64,000 nucleotides of DNA from Pseudomonas pergaminensis (GTDB taxonomy: Bacteria; Pseudomonadota; Gammaproteobacteria; Pseudomonadales; Pseudomonadaceae): NCBI RefSeq assembly GCF_024112395.2, contig NZ_CP078013.2:4216001-4280000 (forward strand). Direction: 5' to 3'. Below are positions 3,705 to 55,200 of this stretch, piece after piece. The position numbers were made by a program, and so were the translations under genes. The notes beneath the pieces were generated by a model that searched no databases, was not told the DNA's origin, and saw only the letters and a list, made by a program, of their open reading frames with translations. Within the stretch, counting starts at the first letter, position 1; every line of letters starts with the position of its first letter.

Positions 3705-3868
3705 AGGGCGCTCGTTGACGGTACAAAGGGTGGGGTTTTCCCAGAATTGGGTAGGTTTGGCAAGTGTAGGAAGAGTCGCTGCGATGACATTTCCCTTTAT
3801 CTCGCAGGACGTTTCCGAGAGAATCCCAACCGCTTGCGCCGCTCAAATCACGTGGCTAGTCTTCGTCG

Positions 3869-3888
3869 GTCACTGCCAATTCAGTGAC
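3869..3888. promoter_or_regulatory. Palindrome GTCACTG-N6-CAGTGAC upstream of the C4-like RNA
   Basis: A perfect 7-bp inverted repeat with a 6-base spacer, 8 bases before the first pairing block of the C4/CI-like element. It could be an operator or the first stem of the leader transcript; sequence alone does not decide. Confidence 0.4.
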
Positions 3889-3895
3889 TCGGGGT

Positions 3896-4075
3896 TTGGT
3901 AGACCACGAGTGATTAGGCGCTAAGCGCCCCCTTCTGCAAGGCGCTTTTTTTCGGCCCTGCGTTATGGTGGCCGTGCGCAGGGCACCTTCGGGTGCACCG
4001 GGTCCTAATCACCGGTCTACCAATCTGCGTACGGTCACCACCCTAAAAGTCGTTTGGTAGCGATCGTGGTGACAT
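3896..4075 (+). ncRNA. C4 / P4-CI-like antisense RNA element in the leader of a small gene
   Basis: Seen: TTGGTAGACC at 3896-3905 and TTGGTAG at 4054-4060 flank GGTCTACCAA at 4014-4023, so the central block can pair with either flank but not both. The outer pairing extends through GTGATTAGG (3910-3918) with CCTAATCAC (4004-4012). Inside lie an intrinsic terminator (3924-3952) and a GCACC-TTC-GGGTGC hairpin (3983-3996). GTCACCAC and GTGGTGAC form a further stem before the ribosome site. This seqA-seqB-seqC arrangement is that of the P4 CI and P1 C4 immunity RNAs, where a processed RNA causes premature termination of its own leader. The consensus match is from memory. Confidence 0.7.
3924..3952 (+). 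terminator. Intrinsic terminator inside the C4-like leader
   Basis: AGCGCC (3924-3929) pairs perfectly with GGCGCT (3941-3946), followed by a run of seven T (3946-3952). Placed between the first and second pairing blocks, it would stop transcription before the downstream small gene. Confidence 0.75.
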
Positions 4076-4101
4076 TCCAACTTAGATTAGGAGTTGAACC
4101 C

Positions 4102-4347
4102 ATGGACAAACCTGTCCCCGCGCCGCCCGCTTCAGAACTGCAATTCTTCACCACCACCCCAGACCTCAGCTTCGAAGACGCCCTGGCCCACGCCAGCAGC
4201 GTGTTGCGTTGTGCTGCCGTTGCGGCGCAAACCGCCGGGGATCAACTGGAAGGGACGTCACGCACGTTGGTGCTGTCGGTCATGCACCTGGTGGACATGG
4301 CCAGTGTGATGGTGGATCGGTCGCTGGAGTGTATGCAGCCGAGCTAA
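4102..4347 (+). CDS. Small DUF6124/DUF3077-like protein
   Basis: An 81-aa soluble protein of unknown function. It has a proline-rich head (MDKPVPAPPASELQFF), then a predicted helical hairpin containing PDLSFEDALAHASSVLRCA and a second helix LVLSVMHLVDMASVMVDRSLE. I recall many short Pseudomonas proteins with the EDALAHAS...VMHLVDMA pattern under DUF6124 or DUF3077, but no biochemical role. The ATG at 4102 follows a TAGGAG ribosome site at 4088-4093; an in-frame upstream extension lacks one. It lies directly behind the C4-like RNA element, suggesting control by premature termination. Confidence 0.75.
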   Translation: MDKPVPAPPASELQFFTTTPDLSFEDALAHASSVLRCAAVAAQTAGDQLEGTSRTLVLSVMHLVDMASVMVDRSLECMQPS

Positions 4348-4370: not shown

Positions 4371-4498
4371 TTGTGGTGAGCGGGCTTGTCCCGCGCTGGG
4401 CTGCGAAGCGGCCCTAAAACAGACTCGTTCTAATCAGGCAGAACGCTTTTTTTGGGGCCGCTTCGCGCCCCAACGCGGGACAAGCCCGCTCACCACAA
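4371..4498. repeat. Long REP-type inverted repeat (25-bp perfect arms)
   Basis: TTGTGGTGAGCGGGCTTGTC... at 4371-4395 is exactly complementary to 4474-4498, with a second inner GC-rich pairing (GCTGCGAAGCGGCC with GGGGCCGCTTCGCGCC). It sits between two convergent gene ends and can form a bidirectional terminator. Confidence 0.85.
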
Positions 4499-45539: not shown

Positions 45540-45911
45540 ACGCTGTAGCAGCCACGGTAACCACGGTAACCACGATGCGAAGCGAGCCGCTCTTGATCTT
45601 GATTTTGATCTTGATCTCGCTTTTGATCCTAGGCGCCCCATCAAACACGCTGGCCGGAATTCGGCAGGGATTTGGGGGGTAAACCGGCAGGGATGCCGGT
45701 TTAGCCGCCCCGCGCCATGGATGGCGCGTGGCGGCGGCCCCCCAAATCACTGTCGAATTACGGGCACACCGAGCCTAGGCGAGGTGCCGAGTGTTGGGGC
45801 AAGAGCCCTTTGGTTACTTTGGGGCTTTTCCAAAGTGACCCGCCGTAAGGGCGGAACCCATAGAAGCCGTTACCCAAATAACGGATATGTACCCGGTCTG
45901 ATCCAATATCC
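45540..45911. repeat. Pseudomonas-type recurrent intergenic element
   Basis: Non-coding. It begins with GGTAACCAC direct repeats and a run of TTGAT/TTTGAT units (about 45591-45628). It goes on with a palindromic segment (AAACCGGCAGGGATGCCGGTTT at about 45679-45700), GCGCCATGGATGGCGC (45712-45727), and a GTTACTTTGG...CCAAAGTGAC hairpin (about 45813-45840) followed by CCGCCGTAAGGGCGG. From memory this composite recurs between genes of many P. fluorescens-group strains and leads into REP units; its function is unknown to me. Confidence 0.55.
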
Positions 45912-51825: not shown

Positions 51826-52195
51826 CATAACAAGAATAAAAAGCACCAAACCTAATAAAAATAAGACGAAACGACTCTGACATAACAAAAACAACACGGC
51901 AGAGACGCAGCTAACAGATTTTTTTGGAGAAGATGTGCTTCGCAGGGTACGGCGTGCCGAAACCCGCAACCGGTTAGAGAAAAATAAAACTACCTCAGGT
52001 AGCTACCCACTGGTTGGATCGTTCACGAAGAAGCAGATCAGCGCTCAAAAAAATACGTTTGCTCTTGACCCCGGATGGGGGTCGCCAAAAACAGCGGTAA
52101 AGGGTAACGGTTGCCAAAAACAACAATAGACCGCCCCTCAATAATAAAAAAAGAGCACGCAACGACACATTAAAGGGGACCCTCGGGTCCCCTTT
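51826..52195 (+). ncRNA. crcY: CrcY-like small RNA (Crc/Hfq-sequestering)
   Basis: Between the sigma-54 promoter and a GC-rich hairpin (52172-52195) lie about 370 bases, the size known for CrcZ/CrcY. The RNA has six or more A-rich AANAANAA-type motifs: AACAAGAATAA, AATAAAAATAAG, AACAAAAACAAC, GAAAAATAAAAC, CCAAAAACAACAATA and CAATAATAAAAAAA. In pseudomonads such RNAs, made under CbrAB/RpoN control on poor carbon sources, titrate the Hfq-Crc repressor. I recall P. putida crcY lying beside the HMG-CoA lyase gene, exactly the context here. A 64-codon open frame inside is not considered a gene. Confidence 0.88.
52172..52195. terminator. Hairpin ending crcY and facing the NEL gene
   Basis: AAAGGGGACC-CTCG-GGTCCCCTTT, a 10-bp perfect stem with A and T flanks on both sides, so it can stop crcY transcription and the convergent toxin-gene transcript (stop at 52216). 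Confidence 0.8.
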
Positions 52196-52215
52196 GTGCT
52201 GTGTGCCCCCCTCCC

Positions 52216-55200
52216 TCAGAGCGATGTCCCGCTCACCGCCGCAACGTTGTTCAATACAGTGCGCGTCAAGGTTTTCAGCGAGTTCTGCTCCAGCATTTGC
52301 CGCTCCACCCCCAATTGATCGAGCTCTCGCTTGTAAAAAGCACTCGGCATCGCGCCGTTCACCAGCACTTCATCCCTGCGTGCGCCAAACAGGCGGGCCA
52401 CCCGGTCGGCGGCCTCAGCGTGCTTTGCCTGCCATTGCTCTATTGCGTCCTGGCCAGCAGCGGTATCCCGTTGACCTTCCAGATCCGAAAGTTCGAATAA
52501 CGCTTCGCTCTTCTCTCCCAGCAACCCGAGACCGGGTGCCATCAGTGCATCGAGCGCTTGAGAGTAGCGGGTGCGAAGGTGTTTCTCCCAGAACAGGCAC
52601 CCGACAAAAAAAGCCTCCTCGGCAGCCGGATTGCGCTCGTCCCTGAGCACCTGTGCATACGCGGCGTCGATCGTCTCCGGGCTTACATTGGCCATCTGGG
52701 GAAACAACATGTCCCGGGACCGGACCGGTAACGCCAGCCGCTCTGCAAGCCGTACGCGATAAGCCAGGACAACTTCAACCTCCTCGGTAAATCCAGGGCC
52801 TCTTGCCGCAACGTCCCGTAGGGCAATGTCGTCTACCAGCATCAAACGATACAACTTCCTGGCCGTTTCGATCAGCGTGCTTTCGGCATTCTCCGCTCCG
52901 GCTAGTTCAAGTGCCTTTGCCCCTAGCAGCTCACGCTCAAGGTTCATGAACTCGACCGAACTGCCGTCACCACAGGTCACTCGATCGTCGGCCACGGTAA
53001 ATAACGCCTCGCGAATAGCCTGGCTTTCGCTTGCGGCCTCCAGCATGCCCCACACCCGCTCGGCCAGCGCTGGGCGAGTCACCGCGCTGGCGTACTCGGC
53101 ACTGCGGGTTGTGTCGGCCACCACTGCAAAAAAAGCATCCGAACTCAGACTGACCCTGAGTTCATCCCAGATCCCACCCAGCCGCGCCGAGTCACCGGTC
53201 GACGACGCGCCCAACCACAAACCACGCGCTTCATCGACCGTCACGTGCTCACCCAGTTGTACCTGGGCGGCTGCCAATACCGGATTGCCGTGCACAATAA
53301 CGCGATCCGGATGCTCATAGGCGTATTCAGGCAATGTCCTGATCCGGTTGTCATGCAGATCGGTACGGGCCAGATAGGGCAATTGTTCGGCACCGACGGG
53401 AAAGCTGACCGTACCTGTATTGGGCAGGTAAAGCTGGTTCAGGTTGCGCAAGCCACGCAGATCGGCCTGCCACCCCAAGCGGGGATTATTGCCAAGATTG
53501 AGTATCTTCAGGCTCCGCATACCCTCCAGGCGCCGACGGCTTTGGTCGGTCAACTGGATATCATTTCCGCTCAAATTGAGTTTGGTAAGCCCCACCCCCT
53601 CGTTCGCAAACGTCGGCAGTTGCGTCAGGTTGTTATTGCTCATGTTCAACCAGCGCAGCCCGCCGAATGCATTCAGAAAAGGCAAGGAGCTGTCTGAAAG
53701 CGCCATCCGGCGTAAAAACAGACTGCCTACGTGATCCATGTTTGCGCAGATCGCCGGTAACTCGCCGATCGCCTCATCCGACAGGTCCAGCACATGGCCG
53801 ATTGGTGTCCCATCCCCTGCAAATGCCTGCGCAGAGGCCCTGCGCCAAGCCGCCTTGAGGGTACCCGAGACTCTGCGCCGGGCGCTCGCATAACCTGATC
53901 CCCCTTGCTGTTGCCACTCGAGCAGCGTCTTGTTCAATGCGGCAAATTCCGCTTCAAGCTCGGTCAGTTTTGCCAGCAGAACGGCGTCACTGGCCTGTTG
54001 AAGGCCAAGCAGGGTCTCGACCTCTTCCATGGACTTTGTTGGATAGAGCGCCATCGCAGCACTCTTGCAAGCTAACGGACGTTCGACGGCGCCACCTACC
54101 GGACTGAGCGGATAACCCACGCGCCCATCAGCCAGGCGCATGGGGGATTTGAAACCGGGCTTGATCGCCTGCAAGCCCAGTGCACGTCGACTCACCGGCT
54201 CACTCAGCGGCTGCTGCGCAAGCTTGCGCTTGAGCCGTTGCGCAGCCGCATTGAACTGCGGCCAACTGGTGAACTTGCCACTGCTAGCCATCCAGAGCGC
54301 GTTGAAAAAGGCGTCCTTGTCGCTTCGCCAGTATTCAATTTTTCCCGGTCCGCTGCAGAGTTTCCACGTCTTCATGTCGGTGTGGATAAGCTGCAGTTGC
54401 CGGGGGGCACTACTGTCTCCCACCCGGTCCAGCAAAGGGCCGTCGTAGGCCCCCGACCGAAGCTCAATGCACACGCCATCCAGGAGTTCAGGCAGCGCGG
54501 CCATCTTGTGCAGTGCCAGGTGCACGCTGTCCAGGGTGAGTTGATTGTCGAATAACAGATCGGCCTGTGCCCGCATCACGCGCGCCTTCTGCAAGTACCC
54601 TCGCGCTTCTTCGGCCAGGCGCAACGGCACACGCGATGGGGTCTGCATGCGTGCCAGTTCCTGACTGTTGGCATGGCTCAGAATTTCTTCAGCCGCTAAC
54701 CTGGGCAAGCCTGGAAAGCTACGCTGGAGCAGCTGCACGTTGGCATCACTGGAAACCTCACCGGCCGAGATCTCGCGATTTAACAGCGTGCCTCGGGTGC
54801 TCTCGGCGGCTTCCAGCAAACAATCCCGGTATCGCACGACCCTTGCCAATGGTGTACGCAGGTATTGCATCAGTGGATCGACCTCATTGCCCTCCTGCAC
54901 CTGGCCCGCAGCAGCCGTATCCTGTATCACGTCTCGGGTCTGAAGAAACAGAAAGGCCATCGCTTCCCTTGTAACCCTCTGCTCTCCCAACAATCGGCGA
55001 ATTTCAGGTTCCGTCAACTGCTTGATGAACGACGGAAACAGCAGGCCACTTTGCAATTGCTCATGTTCCAGTGTGATCACTTGGTTTGCATCGCTCGGTA
55101 CACCTGAACGCCATATCGGGTTGCCCTTTGCATCCAGCGCCACCAATACACGTGACTCTGGCCACATCCCGCTCTCGATCAATACCTGGACTTGCATGAA

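Follow-up and report, generated by a model that had tools for sequence, protein, structure and literature searches.

The leader of a small DUF6124 gene in Pseudomonas pergaminensis contains a C4 antisense RNA flanked on both sides by segments complementary to its two address sequences. The gene lies near the start of a 64,000-nt stretch of the genome, referred to below as the window, whose numbering is used unless stated otherwise. Switches of this type are already known from phages; here they are paired with DUF6124/DUF3077 genes. We conclude that the locus probably belongs to a chromosomal family of largely insulated phage-type C4 switches, and that this C4-type switch probably keeps the DUF6124 gene off by default. 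The anatomy of the leader, the covariation of its pairing segments, the pairing of C4 with the gene family, the privacy of the addresses and purifying selection on the gene were all computed. DUF6124 and DUF3077 recur in Pseudomonas, and little literature was found under these names. C4 and c4-a1b1 motifs are listed in the accessible part of PMC2864571, and our literature search, which covered few subscription journals, found no paper linking C4 to DUF6124/DUF3077. As a frequent partner of these genes is an RNA switch of known type, their control is directly testable.

Anatomy of the leader

All features of the leader (3869–4101), of the promoter-like sequence before it and of the gene behind it are on the plus strand. 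A sequence-only reading of the window had proposed a C4/P4 CI-like layout and had named a covariance search as a check. This search confirmed the layout, as the C4 model (Rfam RF01695) matched 3961–4045 with 76.7 bits against a gathering score of 45 (E = 3.1e-13 for the window). The b' address, CCTAATCAC (4004–4012), occupies the loop of C4 hairpin P3, and the a' address, GGTCTACCAA (4014–4023), was identified by exact search and the C4 model. The two targets of a', identified by exact search and covariation, are a1, GGTTTGGTAGACC (3893–3905), and a2, GTTTGGTAGC (4052–4061); the three a blocks lie where that reading had placed them. It had overlooked a second set of addresses. The first target of b' is b1, GTGATTAGG (3910–3918), and the second is b2, GATTAGGAG (4085–4093), which includes the Shine-Dalgarno sequence TTAGGAG (4087–4093) of the ATG at 4102. 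Both address segments of the C4 RNA are therefore complementary to an upstream a1/b1 pair and to an a2/b2 pair at the ribosome binding site, as in the phage P1 circuit. A GG dinucleotide in C4 (3967–3968) resembles the RNase P cut site of the phage RNA, a motif described in the accessible part of PMC5320573.

A promoter-like sequence recognized by eye, TTGCGC (3834–3839) followed by a 17-nt spacer and TAGTCT (3857–3862), presumably marks the start of the leader. Similar TTG(C/T)GC-N17-TAnnnT sequences were seen by eye in several paralogs and most orthologs, and a generic scan listed no consensus sigma-70 promoter. A c4-a1b1-like element (RF03163) with the 5' hairpin GTCACTG..CAGTGAC (3869–3888) spans 3856–3912; its score of 42.5 bits is below the gathering score of 46.7 (E = 2.5e-9). 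The isrK model (RF01394) gave no match in the window's own allele, even at an E value of 10. An intrinsic terminator (3923–3952), also anticipated between the first blocks, consists of the arms AAGCGCC (3923–3929) and GGCGCTT (3941–3947) and a T tract to 3952. Its hairpin (3923–3947) is absent from the list of the generic scan, which has a loop limit of 8 nt, and the terminator is visible by eye in those orthologs that retain the leader. A short terminated leader (3869–3952) could arise as an IsrK-like trans-acting RNA. Overlapping b1 with its 5' arm is an alternative hairpin, GGCGC-TAA-GCGCC (3917–3929), a possible antiterminator that forms in the predicted fold of a transcript stopping before the 3' terminator arm. 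The predicted fold of the leader was more stable than 200 of 200 dinucleotide shuffles (z = −4.69).

The DUF6124 gene and its neighbours

The ORF behind the leader (4102–4347) encodes an 81-aa protein that matched DUF6124 (PF19619) in Pfam with 60.4 bits against a cut-off of 27; the DUF3077 match was marginal (22.5 bits against 21). The payload thus differs from the icd/ant antirepressor payload of P1 immI. Structure prediction with 13 sequences yielded a helical hairpin (residues 24–48 and 51–78) with a loose N-terminus, a mean pLDDT of 83.2 and a pTM of 0.62. Foldseek comparison with the PDB returned 215 matches up to an E value of 10, none of them at 0.001 or below, and two PDB sequence matches (E = 0.89 and 0.93; SufD) were not accepted as real. 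No NCBIfam or PADLOC model matched the protein, and its comparison with phage records found nothing. The most likely role for the payload protein is that of a helical adaptor or regulator of small size. Purifying selection on the ORF is evident from a dN/dS of 0.10 (mean dN 0.064, mean dS 0.613; 66 pairs of 12 intact sequences, including that of the window).

The neighbouring genes, for an FKBP-type isomerase and an SLT_4 transglycosylase, are both on the opposite strand. Given these neighbours, an upstream window flank of 3.9 kb and a comparison of 1–25000 with phage records, the locus does not have the appearance of an active prophage. The earlier statement that the window lacks phage genes held for 1–25000, to which the comparison was limited; just three phage records gave short matches there and nothing substantial was found. 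A large inverted repeat (4371–4498; REP-like doublet, 49 nt, 92%) just 3' of the ORF encloses a terminator-like hairpin (4426–4445) and has at most a putative link to the switch. The loop region of the hairpin contains CTAATCA, the core of b', possibly by chance.

Covariation of the pairing segments

A protein scan of named genomes identified the orthologous locus in 15 relatives, all Pseudomonas. The FKBP gene was upstream in all 15, and the SLT gene was within the examined flank in 7. C4 exceeded the cut-off in 13 of the 15 (72.3–82.7 bits) and was missing in P. haemolytica (L176) and P. sivasensis (L178). The c4-a1b1 element was above its cut-off in 6 orthologs, and isrK in 3 (L165–L167; 50.7–53.0 bits against 50), where it matched the a1b1-terminator segment. 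Three a alleles were found in the order a1/a'/a2: TTGGTAG/CTACCAA/TTGGTAG, TTAGTAG/CTACTAA/TTAGTAG and TTAGCAG/CTGCTAA/TTAGCAG. The two main b alleles were GATTAGG/CCTAATC/GATTAGG and GACTAGG/CCTAGTC/GACTAG, the latter before AGGAG. All three segments of each set therefore covary across the orthologous locus, apart from one mismatch in a1 of P. canadensis and a G-U pair in L172, where b2 is GGTTAGG. Compensatory changes in the pairing blocks, which the sequence-only reading had asked for among homologues, are thus present. The P. canadensis protein is identical to that of the window, yet its a allele is different. The gene was broken in 4 of the 15 relatives: L174 and L177 have a frameshift with C4 present, L176 has a stop codon and L178 a frameshift, both with C4 gone. 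The spacing between the FKBP and DUF6124 genes is longer in L164, L166, L174 and L177 than in the other orthologs, suggesting an extra insertion upstream of the switch.

Pairing was also examined in 121 C4 matches (117 above the cut-off) from five whole genomes, that of the window and four chosen single-contig ones. After 22 loci with alignment gaps were dropped, 99 loci with 39 distinct a' words remained for the a segments. Seven of 7 Watson-Crick pairs were found between a1 and a' in 76 of these loci, and between a2 and a' in 70. Shuffled pairings gave means of 3.75 (a1) and 3.77 (a2) of 7, with highest values of 4.18 and 4.14. Sliding the partner by 1–3 nt reduced the mean from 6.15 to 2.55 or less for a1 and from 6.02 to 2.61 or less for a2. 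As the shuffles leave relatedness in place, the orthologous locus carries the most weight.

C4 units in Pseudomonas and their payloads

The P. pergaminensis genome contained 11 C4 matches, all above the cut-off. In a GTDB sample of the genus, 54 of 59 genomes had a C4 match (53 of 59 above the cut-off), with a maximum of 54 per genome, or 55 with laxer filters. Matches were found in 29 of 194 genomes sampled from the order, and outside the family the listed counts were 1–6 per genome. A DUF6124/DUF3077 match was located within 800 nt downstream on the same strand for 80 of the 121 C4s in the five genomes; the opposite strand had none within this distance, and 3 were upstream on the same strand. 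A local HMM found a DUF-like ORF within 700 nt of 82 of the 121 loci. The expectation that the element always precedes this gene family held in part: C4 was frequent, preceding 78 of 93 DUF6124/DUF3077 loci, and the other 15 were without a recognized C4. The frequent pairing of C4 with these genes, the covariance match and the compensatory changes substantiate the earlier proposal of an antisense circuit wired to a chromosomal DUF6124/DUF3077-like gene.

Payloads assigned from ORFs within 300 nt of the 121 C4s were DUF-like at 79 loci, Bro-N at 9 and members of an unnamed family at 15, the model of which was built on 8 seeds selected from these same loci; none was recognized at 18. The Bro-N payloads in Pseudomonas are short proteins, and all four candidates tested exceeded the Pfam cut-off. 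The unnamed family gave an hhalign probability of 20.8% with DUF6124. The Bro-N payload of one locus (L122, G049:6041087) starts with MIKVTPNPPE, resembling the MFKVTPNPP of some DUF6124 payloads, such that the N-terminus seems to be shared and the domain behind it differs. Among 936 pairwise alignments across C4 in the largest genome, 366 begin 141–240 nt before C4 and 482 within 20 nt of the C4 start; they tend to end either close to where C4 ends or around +450 to +525, which is approximately the ORF end.

A DUF3077/DUF6124 gene without C4 is found directly 5' of the PrrF sRNA in four of the five whole genomes (L017, L179, L180 and L186), and is possibly an ancestral or separately regulated member of the family. 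That of P. pergaminensis (L017) lies at 4281638–4281832 of the genome, about 1.6 kb beyond the window end. Two other loci, L181 and L188, retain the a1b1 element (47.2 and 41.8 bits) and an open DUF frame with no recognized C4; other C4s could target them in trans. A sub-threshold isrK match of 30 bits is present in L181 as well. In P. putida, the frame of a DUF3077 pseudogene (PP_RS01475) is reported to have been restored in a furfural-evolved strain (PMC9630843, accessible part).

Addresses within one genome

Within a genome, two loci hardly ever have the same two-part address, which comprises 7 nt of a and about 9 nt of b. The number of distinct a' plus b' combinations was 11 of 11, 9 of 10, 15 of 15, 29 of 30 and 55 of 55 in the five genomes. 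Over the 121 loci, the mean Watson-Crick run of a' with its own flanks and with those of loci with a different address was 6.92 versus 4.96 upstream and 6.78 versus 4.10 downstream. The corresponding values for b' were 6.27 versus 4.78 and 6.77 versus 4.75, and none of 2000 permutations reached the own-flank values. A plain energy matrix of the 121 loci did not resolve related addresses clearly and was given up in favour of run lengths and address columns. Where a DUF-like ORF with an ATG was available (73 loci), a b' run of at least 6 was found downstream in 61. The match was located just before the ATG in 49, compared with 39 of 723 draws with the b loops of other loci.

A joint criterion of at least 6 of 7 in a and a run of at least 6 in b, applied downstream in the largest genome, was satisfied by 31 of 55 own targets and by 53 of 2970 others. 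Ranked by address score and summed over the five genomes, 69 of 119 C4s had their own target strictly first on the downstream side, and 65 of 100 did so on the upstream side. The nearly private addresses suggest that C4 units within a genome are to a large extent insulated from each other; this insulation is not absolute, as the own target was strictly best for part of the C4s only.

Paralogs were compared using the ORF nearest to each C4. None of 69 paralog pairs (39 loci, ORF DNA identity of at least 0.80) shared a b loop, and 16 shared a'. Mean identity in these pairs was 0.847 for the ORF, 0.723 for a', 0.663 for b and 0.792 for the C4 stem; the a' identity of random pairs in two genomes was 0.520 and 0.648. 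By these values, the address diverges more quickly than the protein gene, at about the pace of the remaining leader. Turnover of the address beyond that of the leader was not upheld. From the C4 stem identity of 0.79 in related paralog pairs, simple arithmetic predicts an identical 7-nt a' in about 13 of the 69 pairs, where 16 were counted, and an identical 12-nt b loop in about 4, where there were 0. Whole-leader exchange and selection on single positions are equally likely explanations.

We also entertain a broader reading, toward which the turnover result leaves us somewhat more doubtful than convinced: a Pseudomonas chromosome would maintain as many as some 55 antisense switches that are mostly orthogonal, and every switch would have its own two-part address in three copies. 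The address would be renewed more quickly than the protein, either by selection or by exchange of leaders that selection retains, such that paralogs avoid silencing one another. Each unit would be a potential source of two RNAs, C4 as a repressor and the short leader as an antagonist. If true, this would be an endogenous form of phage heteroimmunity that controls a multigene family member by member. The C4 family constitutes a natural riboregulator library, with dozens of addresses per cell and natural allele changes at one locus. It allows one to ask how far two addresses must differ for insulation, and why a genus would amplify an immunity device of phages into tens of copies.

Related elements in phages and other bacteria

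The C4 of phages P1 and P7 (immI) resembles that of the window in its fold, its a' and b' segments, the upstream a1/b1 and the a2/b2 at the ribosome binding site, and address differences separate the P1/P7 immunity groups. In the P1 circuit, RNase P processes C4 to an RNA of about 77 nt that works in trans, and C4 acts at the icd start. In contrast, the Pseudomonas C4 is chromosomal and present in many copies per genome, DUF6124 replaces icd/ant, and the window locus has an intrinsic terminator between b1 and C4.

The nearest phage leaders came from seven records: two of PAJU2, two of YMC11/02/R656, and one each of PAShipCat1, vB_Pae_CF74b and DVM-2008. PAJU2, PAShipCat1 and DVM-2008 exceeded the C4 cut-off (68.6–78.7 bits), and in the first two of these c4-a1b1 and isrK (55.2 bits against 50) were above their cut-offs as well. 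The PAJU2 and PAShipCat1 modules have the same order as the window, a1-b1-hairpin-terminator-C4-a2-b2, with the gene starting about 50 nt past C4. Unlike that of the window, the PAJU2 payload is a 286-aa Bro-N protein by Pfam (annotated as hypothetical), and the gene after the PAShipCat1 C4 is annotated as an anti-repressor. In DVM-2008, which is a record of a prophage region, the gene at this place is DUF6124, with prtR nearby (108.6 bits). Thirty viral contigs retrieved with one C4 pattern included 28 with a Bro-N-like ORF and none with a DUF6124-like ORF; the 28 cases are not independent because 21 of the 30 contigs have an identical C4 core. The Bro-N protein behind this identical core differs among several of the contigs (L211–L240). 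A second stem pattern found no viral contigs. A phage origin of the switch is likely.

The IsrK locus of the Salmonella prophage Gifsy-1 (RF01394) shares with the window a leader with a terminator, an RNA in the C4 position and complementarity between the leader and downstream sequence. According to the accessible part of PMC4825925, isrK and its terminator are followed first by STnc1160, a processed RNA that is stable, and then by anrP, which resembles anti-repressor genes. In the silent form of the long transcript, the middle of IsrK is paired to about 30 nt downstream, and short IsrK activates this transcript in trans; the authors of that paper liken IsrK to SeqA and STnc1160 to CI of P4. 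Relative to Gifsy-1 as described there, the window allele fails the isrK model, DUF6124 is directly behind a2/b2, and neither antQ nor orf45 was seen. P4 CI was compared by description only. In the same partial source, it is a leader-processed antisense RNA that binds seqA upstream as well as seqC downstream, and early termination results; it differs in acting on replication genes. The accessible part of PMC5320573 describes 21 C4-like RNAs in one Acinetobacter baumannii chromosome (Group 1 sRNAs), which share the variable a' loop and the multicopy chromosomal arrangement and undergo apparent RNase P-type processing. That part mentions no cognate cis target genes, whereas a small gene and a dedicated set of a1/b1/a2/b2 accompany most Pseudomonas C4s.

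Predicted folding and proposed mechanism

A terminator-like hairpin within 95 nt 5' of C4 was found at 22 of 121 loci, compared with 17 of 605 shuffles and 3 of 121 ORF controls. In at least one of the 22 (L062), the hairpin counted is that of a1. Of the 11 loci in the P. pergaminensis genome, that of the window is the sole one with such a hairpin. The terminator seen by the sequence-only reading is therefore present at the window locus, although it is not a family-wide feature, and a universal terminator mechanism was rejected. Blocking of the Shine-Dalgarno sequence, suggested by the b' match before the ATG in 49 of the 73 loci tested, is predicted to be a more general output than termination.

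When a1 and b1 were held unpaired, the predicted probability of the terminator rose from 0.19 to 0.85, a calculation that is merely suggestive because a second hairpin in the free leader also ends before the T tract. The isolated a'/b' segment is predicted to form about 20 bp with a1/b1, with small bulges (−31.1 kcal/mol). Cofolding of intact C4 gained only −2.3 kcal/mol with a1b1 and −1.1 kcal/mol with a2b2, because the C4 fold itself competes. This difference implies that pairing must be started by partial opening of C4 or by loop contacts.

From these features and the known systems we infer RNA processing, action in trans, the direction of control, the IsrK-like role, the function of the protein and descent. 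One transcript would carry a1/b1, C4, a2/b2 and the gene. C4 would be excised from it, as in phage P1, and act on later transcripts, with the DUF6124 gene held off by default. Binding of C4 to a2/b2 would cover the Shine-Dalgarno sequence and block translation, and binding to a1/b1 would favour the early terminator and limit the supply of C4 itself. The short terminated leader bears the same a1/b1 words; it may antagonize C4 or a closed cis fold and thereby turn the gene on, as prophage IsrK does. This antagonist role is suggested by the behaviour of IsrK in Gifsy-1 and the isrK matches in relatives. The unit may derive from, or share descent with, phage C4-antirepressor modules.

Alternative explanations

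In a rather unlikely alternative, the switch is of the IsrK type and acts mainly in cis: a'/b' would close the gene by pairing with a1/b1 of the same transcript, the short leader would open it, and free C4 would be minor. Consistent with this, a1/b1 and b'/a' enclose the terminator as paired segments in the minimum-energy fold of the entire leader, Gifsy-1 combines silent pairing with trans activation by short IsrK (PMC4825925, accessible part), and isrK was above the cut-off in 3 of 15 orthologs as well as PAJU2 and PAShipCat1. The isrK matches raise the standing of the cis switch slightly and lower that of an insulated C4 switch slightly. However, conservation of C4 extends past the addresses to its complete fold (117 of 121 loci above the cut-off), the window allele has no isrK match, and a short leader cannot be general, as most C4 loci are without a terminator-like hairpin. 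Moreover, the accessible parts of the sources describe raised read coverage over the C4 part of the A. baumannii RNAs (PMC5320573) and a stable RNA downstream of IsrK, STnc1160, in Gifsy-1 (PMC4825925). We also consider it improbable that the two genes form a type I toxin-antitoxin-like pair in which the DUF protein is harmful and C4 is the RNA antitoxin. In its favour, P1 immI encodes C4 together with Ant and the cell-division inhibitor Icd (PMC8201110, accessible part); in addition, the two orthologs that lost C4 (L176 and L178 of 15) have a broken gene too. The strict asymmetry expected from these two was rejected as a rule by open DUF frames without a recognized C4, namely L181 and L188 (a1b1 only) and the four PrrF-adjacent genes. 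No PADLOC model matched, and the broken genes with C4 kept (L174 and L177) are compatible with either view.

It is very unlikely that the chromosomal C4s form an immunity bank acting in trans on incoming phages or plasmids of the same address. Phage C4s do precede antirepressors, and one viral address, L233, agrees with the chromosomal L136 in a' and in 9 nt of b', a likeness that may be fortuitous. However, this was the single one of 10 distinct viral addresses to match any of the 121 chromosomal C4s in both parts, and the own target was best-scoring in over half of the loci. The same viral comparison, and the lack of a PADLOC match, leave the defence unit considered in the sequence-only reading unsupported. 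That reading had offered a prophage relic as well. Related leaders do occur in phage records and some loci are degraded, with 18 of 121 lacking a recognized payload and 4 of 15 orthologs broken. Nevertheless, a decaying remnant without present function is hardly tenable given the dN/dS of 0.10, the coordinated address changes, the FKBP neighbour in 15 of 15 relatives, the size of the family and the absence of a substantial phage match in 1–25000.

Two further RNAs were identified elsewhere in the window, a TwoAYGGAY RNA at 45646–45772 (61.2 bits against a cut-off of 43) and the CrcZ sRNA at 51827–52226 (329.6 bits).
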